From Candidatus Dadabacteria bacterium (GTDB lineage Bacteria > Desulfobacterota_D > UBA1144 > Nemesobacterales > CSP1-2): 35,198 nucleotides of DNA. The stretch covers positions 1 through 35,198 of the forward strand of contig JAHFBK010000007.1 of the NCBI GenBank assembly GCA_023250035.1, in the 5' to 3' direction. Under the pieces are notes generated by a model that was not told the DNA's origin, ran no database searches, and saw only the letters and a program-made list of their open reading frames with translations. The translations under genes and the position numbers were made by a program. This document shows, in pieces, positions 18,980 through 30,068 of this stretch. Within the stretch, counting starts at the first letter, position 1; each line of letters begins with the position of its first letter.

Positions 18980-19007
18980 GTAGGGGTGCATTGCGATACG
19001 CTCCTAC
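18980..19007. repeat. palindromic element GTAGGGGTGCATTGCGATACGCTCCTAC
   Basis: Imperfect inverted repeat with GTAGGGG / CTCCTAC ends upstream of ORF 19038. Confidence 0.6.
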
Positions 19008-19037: not shown

Positions 19038-19934
19038 ATGGCTAAAATCAAAGGGATTTTCATCTATTCAGACCAACCGTCAAAATCATTGTCAATTCCT
19101 GAGATAATTAACTATATTAGTTGTTATGGATTTTCTGCTGAGTACCGAGGAGACCTTTTTGAATTTTTAGCTCTTTCTAAAGAAGAAGCTTTAGAGTTAG
19201 CAAGAAGAATTGCAGGAACAAGGGTTTTGGACATAGAATCTCCTATAGATGAAATCCGCGAACCGATTTATGGAGAAATTGATGTAGAGCTAAGAAGACT
19301 TAAAGGAGAGGGAAGTTATTTGGAAGTAGGGGCAATTGGCTTCGCCGAAATGCCAGACCGCCACCTGCATTTTGGCTACACCGATAGTGCCCTACCCACT
19401 ACCCGCACTATTCATGAATTGCCCCTACTCTCCGATGGGCTATGGCTTCAGAGGATTTTTTACAAGATCATGGCTTCCAAAAATCCGTTTGAGTTTAATG
19501 GCAGTTTTATTCAAATAATCTTTACTAGTAGGCTTTTTGGAACTTATGAGACAAATAGGTATCATGCAAGAGTGGTTCTAACTGGTCTTCCTTCTTTAAT
19601 TTCAACTTCTGGAATAGTAGAAGCACCCGCAAGACCAAAGGAGTACTACTGGCTTAAAGCCAGCTTTAGACAAGCAGGAAAAGACCTGAGTGAGCTTGAC
19701 CTTATCTATAAGGGGAGATTTATCGAATACGAAGATCCTAGAATTAGTTCAGTCTTAGCTCCTTATGTTCTTCAGGCGATTTTTTATGAGCTCACTGGAA
19801 ATGCTTTCTGTGATAATTCTTCATGCTGTCTTTATAATTCCCACTGGCAGGAAGAGGTTCTAAAGGCTCAGATTGAGGGAAAACTGTGTGAGGAACATAG
19901 GGATGTTATTCTGGGACTGGCAGAAAATACATAG
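19038..19934 (+). CDS. DUF6775-like protein (putative metallopeptidase) with apparent in-frame palindromic insertion
   Basis: 298 aa; FTSRLFGTYETNRYHARVVLTGLPSLISTSGIVEAPARPKEYYWLKA; C-terminal FCDNSSCCLYNSHWQEEVLKAQ...LCEEH. Family name from memory. Confidence 0.6.
   Translation: MAKIKGIFIYSDQPSKSLSIPEIINYISCYGFSAEYRGDLFEFLALSKEEALELARRIAGTRVLDIESPIDEIREPIYGEIDVELRRLKGEGSYLEVGAIGFAEMPDRHLHFGYTDSALPTTRTIHELPLLSDGLWLQRIFYKIMASKNPFEFNGSFIQIIFTSRLFGTYETNRYHARVVLTGLPSLISTSGIVEAPARPKEYYWLKASFRQAGKDLSELDLIYKGRFIEYEDPRISSVLAPYVLQAIFYELTGNAFCDNSSCCLYNSHWQEEVLKAQIEGKLCEEHRDVILGLAENT
19326..19428. repeat. 103-bp element with perfect 12-bp inverted ends GTAGGGGCAATT...AATTGCCCCTAC, inside CDS 19038-19934
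   Basis: Arms 19326-19337 and 19417-19428; internal 41-bp stretch (19333-19373) recurs at ~24656-24696 with 4 mismatches. Confidence 0.8.
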
Positions 19935-19975: not shown

Positions 19976-20025
19976 GTAGGTCTTGCACCTGCCCTAATTT
20001 GGGCAATCGCAAGGATTGCCCCTAC
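19976..20025. repeat. double-hairpin palindromic element (same subfamily as 29594-29652)
   Basis: GTAGGTCTTGCACCTGCCCTAATTTGGGCAATCGCAAGGATTGCCCCTAC; matches reverse complement of 29594-29652 in layout and loop words. Confidence 0.7.
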
Positions 20026-24654: not shown

Positions 24655-24700
24655 TCAATTGGCTTCGCCGAAATGCCTGACCACTACCCGCATTTTCGTG
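24655..24700. repeat. partial copy of the 19326-19428 element, overlapping the pth stop codon
   Basis: CAATTGGCTTCGCCGAAATGCCTGACCACTACCCGCATTTT vs CAATTGGCTTCGCCGAAATGCCAGACCGCCACCTGCATTTT (37/41). Confidence 0.75.
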
Positions 24701-25280
24701 GCTGAGATGTTACTTCGGGTTTTTTATTGAACTTATTCATAGCGCTTTCCGCACCCCTTAGGACGATTTCTATAACTGCATCTGCAACTCTAACTATCAG
24801 CTCTTTGGCTAACTTTTTCTCTTCTTTTTCAAACTGTGAAAGTACATGGTCAATGACCTCAGACTTTTGAACTGGTTTTCCTATCCCTACTCTTACCCTT
24901 ATAAAGTCACTATCTCCAAGTGAGTTTATTATGGACTGGATTCCCTTATGTCCTGCGCTTCCTCCCCCGACTTTTACCTTTATACTTCCAAGTGATAGGT
25001 CCATTTCATCATAGACAACGATTATATCTTTCGCAGGTATTTTAAAAAATTCTGCAGCCTCTGAAAGAGCCTCTCCACTTCGGTTCATGTAGGTATCCGG
25101 TTTTAGGAGTATTAGTTTCTTTTCGTCAATAGGTGCTTGGGCGTAGTGACTTCTAAACCCCTTCTTCTTAACACTTACGCCAAGTCTTTTCGCAAGCTCA
25201 TCTATAACTATAAAGCCAATGTTGTGCCTTGAGGAAGCATATCCCTTTCCTGGATTCCCTAGTCCAGCAACCAAAATCAT
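24684..25280 (-). CDS. pth: peptidyl-tRNA hydrolase
   Basis: MILVAGLGNPGKGYASSRHNIGFIVIDELA...LLKPDTYMNRSGEAL. Confidence 0.97.
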   Translation of the reverse strand: MILVAGLGNPGKGYASSRHNIGFIVIDELAKRLGVSVKKKGFRSHYAQAPIDEKKLILLKPDTYMNRSGEALSEAAEFFKIPAKDIIVVYDEMDLSLGSIKVKVGGGSAGHKGIQSIINSLGDSDFIRVRVGIGKPVQKSEVIDHVLSQFEKEEKKLAKELIVRVADAVIEIVLRGAESAMNKFNKKPEVTSQPRKCG

Positions 25281-29960: not shown

Positions 29961-30068
29961 AGCGGAATTCTTCGTTCGACATTGCTCACGACAGGTTAGG
30001 ATTCCATTGGGATCTGGGGTATCCCCGATCAGGTCGGGGATCAAGAGGGAGGAATTCAGGGAACCGCT
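29961..30068. repeat. imperfect palindromic element with internal ATCCCCGA/TCGGGGAT hairpin
   Basis: AGCGGAATTC at left, GAATTCAGGGAACCGCT at right, perfect hairpin centred near 30030. Confidence 0.5.

Follow-up and report, generated by a model that had tools for sequence, protein, structure and literature searches.

A probable in-frame palindromic insertion in a DUF6775 gene of Candidatus Dadabacteria

How does a 103-bp block with inverted ends come to lie inside a protein gene while leaving its frame open? We addressed this question in a 35,198-nucleotide stretch (the window) from a draft MAG of Candidatus Dadabacteria, where such a block occupies part of a gene encoding a DUF6775 protein. 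Our analysis makes it very likely that the block is a non-autonomous palindromic repeat that was inserted in frame into this gene and is most likely translated with the protein. The features on which the argument turns are the following.

19038..19934, + strand: host gene, DUF6775 probable metallopeptidase, 298 aa (Pfam PF20565; Foldseek)
19326..19428, + strand: composite palindromic element, 103 bp, net in-frame gain 99 bp or 33 residues (alignment gap, fold, empty homologues)
19326..19337, + strand: left part of 28-bp shell, GTAGGGGCAATT (uninterrupted copies elsewhere)
19338..19373, + strand: nested hairpin module 1, 36 bp, GGCTTCGCC...GCATTTT (shell-free occurrences; hairpin in fold)
19374..19412, + strand: nested hairpin module 2, 39 bp, GGCTACACC...GCACTATT, related to module 1 (related module in cyclase genes)
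19413..19428, + strand: right part of 28-bp shell, CATGAATTGCCCCTAC (uninterrupted copies elsewhere)
24656..24696, + strand: partial relative, module 1 with flanks (90% over 41 bp)

A nested element inside a conserved gene

The initial annotation had placed a 103-bp block with perfect 12-bp inverted ends (GTAGGGGCAATT/AATTGCCCCTAC) and an open frame at 19326-19428, all of which is exactly as described. These ends alone are suggestive but short of decisive, because 2 inverted-repeat pairs of 12 bp within 110 bp were counted in the window against 0.35 expected under a first-order Markov model. The block folds strongly both as RNA (-42.5 kcal/mol, z -6.9 versus shuffles) and as single-stranded DNA (z -5.9 versus shuffles), and an Rfam search of the window returned no match. 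It had been taken for a simple palindrome-ended element; the inverted ends stand, but the structure is instead a nested composite. When joined, the ends form a 28-bp palindrome (GTAGGGGCAATT followed by CATGAATTGCCCCTAC), and the 75 bp between its halves can be read as a pair of related hairpin modules, one of 36 bp and one of 39 bp.

Each part of this composite resembles repeats elsewhere at about 88-95%, while a full copy with these ends occurs only once in the genome. Uninterrupted 28-bp shells (GTAGGGGCAATTCATGAATTGCCCCTAC) were found in the window genome (G000:C223:10603) and in two others (G005:C36, G005:C45 and G006:C36). Module 1 is also found shell-free, in a different repeat setting, at position 24656 of the window and at four further loci (L003, L176, L302 and L304), and in three cyclase genes (L080, L085 and L086) the shell encloses a module closely related to module 2. 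A 128-bp composite (G001:C15) includes module 2 and an 89-bp composite (G000:C66) lacks it; their flanks are alike, and the two intergenic sites appear to correspond. Good evidence of nesting comes from cyclase genes, which form a series with no clear shell (L263 and L278), the shell only (L260 and L268) or the shell plus one module (L259, L261 and L266).

The second 41-bp copy reported near 24656 is real (24656-24696) but imperfect, and it does not lie purely in non-coding DNA as had been proposed, since it runs into the 3' end of pth (24684-25280, minus strand), whose last codons and TAG stop it supplies. As proof of a mobile full element this copy was rejected, since it represents module 1 only, in a different repeat context.

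The host gene matches PF20565 in two stretches (E 9.6e-68), the best of which begins at residue 130. Its product is probably a metallopeptidase with an archaemetzincin-like fold: the top PDB match of the predicted structure is archaemetzincin 2x7m (Foldseek E 4.5e-3, probability 1.00). Despite this fold, an HExxH motif was not seen at the expected zinc site. A structure model, which the initial annotation had suggested as a check and which was made with AlphaFold, is confident (mean pLDDT 83.9) except for residues 95-127, the sole stretch below 50, which sits between a helix (78-88) and a strand (131-133). The insert thus probably adds a floppy, disordered loop to an otherwise confident predicted fold. 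Comparison of the window genome with the same-genus MAG CSP1-2 gave dN/dS values of 0.147/0.956 overall, 0.169/0.774 before the insert and 0.134/1.087 after it, so the gene is conserved and, judged by codon substitutions, under purifying selection on both sides, although the bulk of this divergence may be older than the insertion. Near-palindromic GTAG-type repeats also lie on each side of the gene, at 18980-19007 and 20001-20025.

Whether homologues carry the segment bears most directly on insertion. In an alignment of 17 sequences (the window and 16 homologues), the window sequence alone opens a 33-residue gap; the segment is absent from all 16 homologues, including those of CSP1-2 (L138) and of a same-family genome (G006). 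The DNA of the element spans codons 97-131 (V97-L131; the encoded peptide includes VGAIGFAEMPDR), which agrees with the roughly 35 residues first estimated, while the net gain by alignment is 33 residues, or 99 bp. Among 60 relatives searched, homologue matches end near residues 68-97 and resume near 128-133. In the G006 gene both pieces are contiguous in DNA, with the junction at residues 95|129. This empty site reads GTACTC and the window reads GTA-[element]-TACTC, so an element that entered at G-TA-C and duplicated the TA would leave such flanks, although at this single locus an element whose own ends are TA would leave them too. Clean empty sites for the GTAG class come chiefly from this gene. 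The empty site in the same genus and the perfect arms fit a recent insertion, and together with the low-confidence loop and dN far below dS they support the initial proposal of a recent insertion tolerated in frame.

Palindromic repeats across related genomes

We next asked how widely such palindromes occur, using targeted searches from which all copy sets and counts derive. Many other genomic copies with GTAGGGG...CCCCTAC ends were found; with the segment also absent from the aligned homologues, neither of the two outcomes that the initial annotation had named as refuting was observed. Strict palindromes of the form GTAGGGGC-N(6-14)-GCCCCTAC numbered 14 in the window genome (G000), 20 in G001 (CSP1-2), 27 in G002 and 42 in G006; G004 and G005 have 3 apiece, the rest of the order has almost none, and reversed-pattern controls gave near-zero counts. 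Their interiors differ between copies yet stay self-complementary. Near-perfect palindromes in fetched DNA comprised 20 in open frames, 3 doubtful and 37 intergenic cases (37/60). The set is not a random one, and the census, which demanded an open frame of 130 codons or more, is partly biased towards such frames and may count some of the 20 intragenic copies as overlapping views of one locus. The intragenic copies use two reading frames (VGA...PL and SRG...RAPT), each of which is open.

Genes carrying these palindromes in frame encode NAD-dependent DNA ligase, isoleucyl-tRNA synthetase (IleS), a type ISP protein and cyclases, as well as, identified by reading the sequence, PyrE, an ABC transporter, an RND pump, an ECF sigma factor and a sigma54 regulator; in the last, the palindrome sits at almost the same position in two species, with self-complementary interiors that differ. 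A clean insertion was rejected for LigA, where the palindrome amounts to only +3 residues relative to CSP1-2, and a clean 28-bp shell insertion was not demonstrated in the cyclases or IleS, whose homologues align without a gap. Because LigA gains 3 residues and the cyclases about none, some palindromes took the place of local sequence instead of only interrupting it.

A second, unrelated family is built on a unit of about 45 bp (GYGGTTCCCT...CCCAGATCCC), with versions of 60 bp and longer carrying nested insertions. Overall, 21 of the 48 copies found are in frame within genes, which encode, by Pfam or PDB matches, DnaE, TilS, SuhB, RimO, NirB, a luciferase-like oxidoreductase, EndoV and others. 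Clean empty sites, with a constant length difference of 45 or 60 bp, were found for the oxidoreductase (G006 and G002) and for DUF6775. The matched cores of intragenic copies measure 43, 58, 61, 70, 73 or 85, all a multiple of three plus one, while intergenic cores also include 42, 56, 57, 60 and 72; part of this regularity arises because an open frame was required. The empty sites in the LLM and DUF6775 genes show a 2-bp excess, which is probably part of a 45-bp element. Target duplication was rejected for this family, as the left dinucleotide is usually GC or GT and is unrepeated on the right.

DUF6775 itself has been struck by this second family in a relative: the CSP1-2 protein has its own insert of about 20 residues downstream of the window's site, alone in the 17-sequence alignment, and the insert belongs to the 45-bp family. 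Second-family inserts with different interiors occupy the same DUF6775 site in G002 (L075, 1730-1796) and G001 (L020, 1445-1508), and the window genome, of the same genus as G001, lacks one; either an ancestral insertion was lost or one site was struck independently. Other inserts of this family also share a place in two species, namely in TilS (L232 in G000, L131 in G001), GspF (L121 in G000, L126 in G006) and DnaE (L179 in G000, L247 in G001), with differing interiors in TilS and GspF. The window contains one intergenic copy of the 45/60-bp family, at 30007-30065 on the minus strand.

Origin, persistence and alternative explanations

The element probably arrived as a nested composite or grew into one, with the 28-bp shell coming first and hairpin modules entering it later. 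Insertion would have occurred at G-TA-C with TA duplicated, for a net 99 bp. The insert probably survives for three reasons: its net length is divisible by three, it has one open frame, and its site falls between the helix and the strand. The element would be moved by an HUH transposase (Y1/RAYT type) that works on its hairpin in single-stranded form. Transposase genes matching PF01797 occur in 7/7 family genomes, and four short HUH transposase genes contain an in-frame GTAG palindrome 21-25 nt past the HUH motif, with differing interiors; the palindrome-bearing loci (L209/L328 in G000, L341 in G001, L099/L187 in G005 and L207 in G058, the last from a genome related to that of the window at domain level only) have perfect palindromes. 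A decayed version seems to be present at L176. One long RAYT gene has a palindrome 45 bp beyond its 3' end, yet most fetched RAYT loci have none nearby. For these reasons we regard the HUH mechanism as plausible but unproven, with somewhat less than an even chance of being right. The targeted searches brought up no autonomous element with the same ends as the 103-bp element. A DNA search with a palindrome-bearing transposase locus for plasmid relatives gave only weak, uninformative matches, on the adjacent adenosine-specific kinase gene or unannotated DNA.

Could the insertion instead be neutral debris in a decaying pseudogene, open by chance? That it looks recent and is confined to a single genome would suit such decay, but 298 codons are still open, the fold around the insert is confident, dN is far below dS on both sides (with the caveat that much of the divergence may predate the insertion) and clear cases of disruption by GTAG palindromes are hardly seen in other genes, all of which makes decay unlikely. 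Ribosomes might instead skip the RNA hairpin, which is very stable, as in mobile byp-type elements, yielding a protein without the loop. Bypass requires neither an open frame nor a preserved one, however, whereas the insert and nearly all intragenic copies are stop-free and in frame (in a census that partly selects open frames), and copies that differ in the frame used are each open; we consider this reading highly improbable. Least credible of all, to the point of being nearly dismissible, is a native clade-specific loop whose likeness to repeats is coincidental: loop length does vary slightly among archaeal homologues of DUF6775, but the segment is absent in every relative, those of the same genus and family included, its ends and modules match repeats elsewhere, and its palindromic fold is strong.

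In-frame insertion of a palindromic repeat thus remains the preferred explanation for the DUF6775 locus as assembled in this draft MAG, with translation most likely on the strength of the open frame. Extending it to the whole Dadabacterial family is a rather doubtful step: several unrelated palindromes would be codon-compatible selfish DNA, of 24, 45, 60 or 99 bp net and with nested hairpin modules, spreading through essential genes at little cost and lengthening where they sit as further modules nest in them, with the presumed mobiliser HUH genes carrying the palindrome in frame just past the HUH motif.

Relation to known repeat systems

Palindromes inserted in frame are known above all from Rickettsia, a lineage of obligate intracellular bacteria, alongside scattered intragenic REPs in other bacteria. 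The present case comes from a distant phylum whose representatives are environmental MAGs (the same-family HRbin37 is G003 in our set), where two unrelated repeat families, empty sites in relatives and stepwise nesting make repeat-made protein segments testable by comparison. Host genes of in-frame palindromes include core DNA- and tRNA-processing enzymes, and because the inserts of two species share a position in several genes (DnaE, TilS, GspF and the ECF sigma factor), some with differing interiors, persistence and internal turnover can be traced.

Rickettsia palindromic elements (RPEs; Ogata et al. 2000, 2002) are summarised as palindromic repeats that sit in the reading frame of unrelated protein genes, are missing from homologues and also occur between genes, with several unrelated families in one lineage (PMC10969869, PMC3733652). 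The Dadabacterial element behaves like an RPE in each of these respects, and some target classes coincide (DnaE; DNA-repair and tRNA enzymes). The initial comparison with RPEs was therefore right in substance, as an analogy of kind and behaviour. The differences are the phylum, Candidatus Dadabacteria, and the architecture, which here consists of hairpins nested in a 28-bp shell or insertions nested in a 45-bp unit.

Intragenic GTAG or CGTC REPs are likewise already established (PMC10969869, PMC3733652). GTAG REPs are 20-40 bp palindromes with an unpaired GTAG at one end, intra-ORF in several species and with RAYT genes alongside (PMC3733652), and they supply TAG stops to flanking genes (Di Nocera et al. 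2013, PMC3733652). Our repeats share the GTAG ends, the 20-40 bp palindrome, the TAG stops, intra-ORF copies and a high, mostly intergenic copy number (14-42 strict copies in four family genomes; 37/60 intergenic); RAYT genes occur here too, though most of the fetched loci have no palindrome nearby. Unlike GTAG REPs, the strict copies and the window element have GTAG at both ends, paired with CTAC, so the element is not a classical GTAG REP; near-perfect palindromes, variable self-complementary interiors and nested modules are further differences. With MITEs (PMC10969869) the element shares short length, a non-autonomous nature, inverted ends and possible TA duplication, whereas the 28-bp shell alone falls below the MITE range of 70-300 bp (PMC3733652).

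The main text of PMC3733652 does not mention Dadabacteria; papers retrieved for Dadabacteria with repeats and palindromes concern, by title, sponge microbiomes and defence systems, and a search with the string GTAGGGGC gave unrelated papers only, among the matches listed. What is new is thus the presence of in-frame palindromes genome-wide in one Dadabacterial family, in at least two unrelated repeat families, of a kind already known from RPEs and intragenic REPs.
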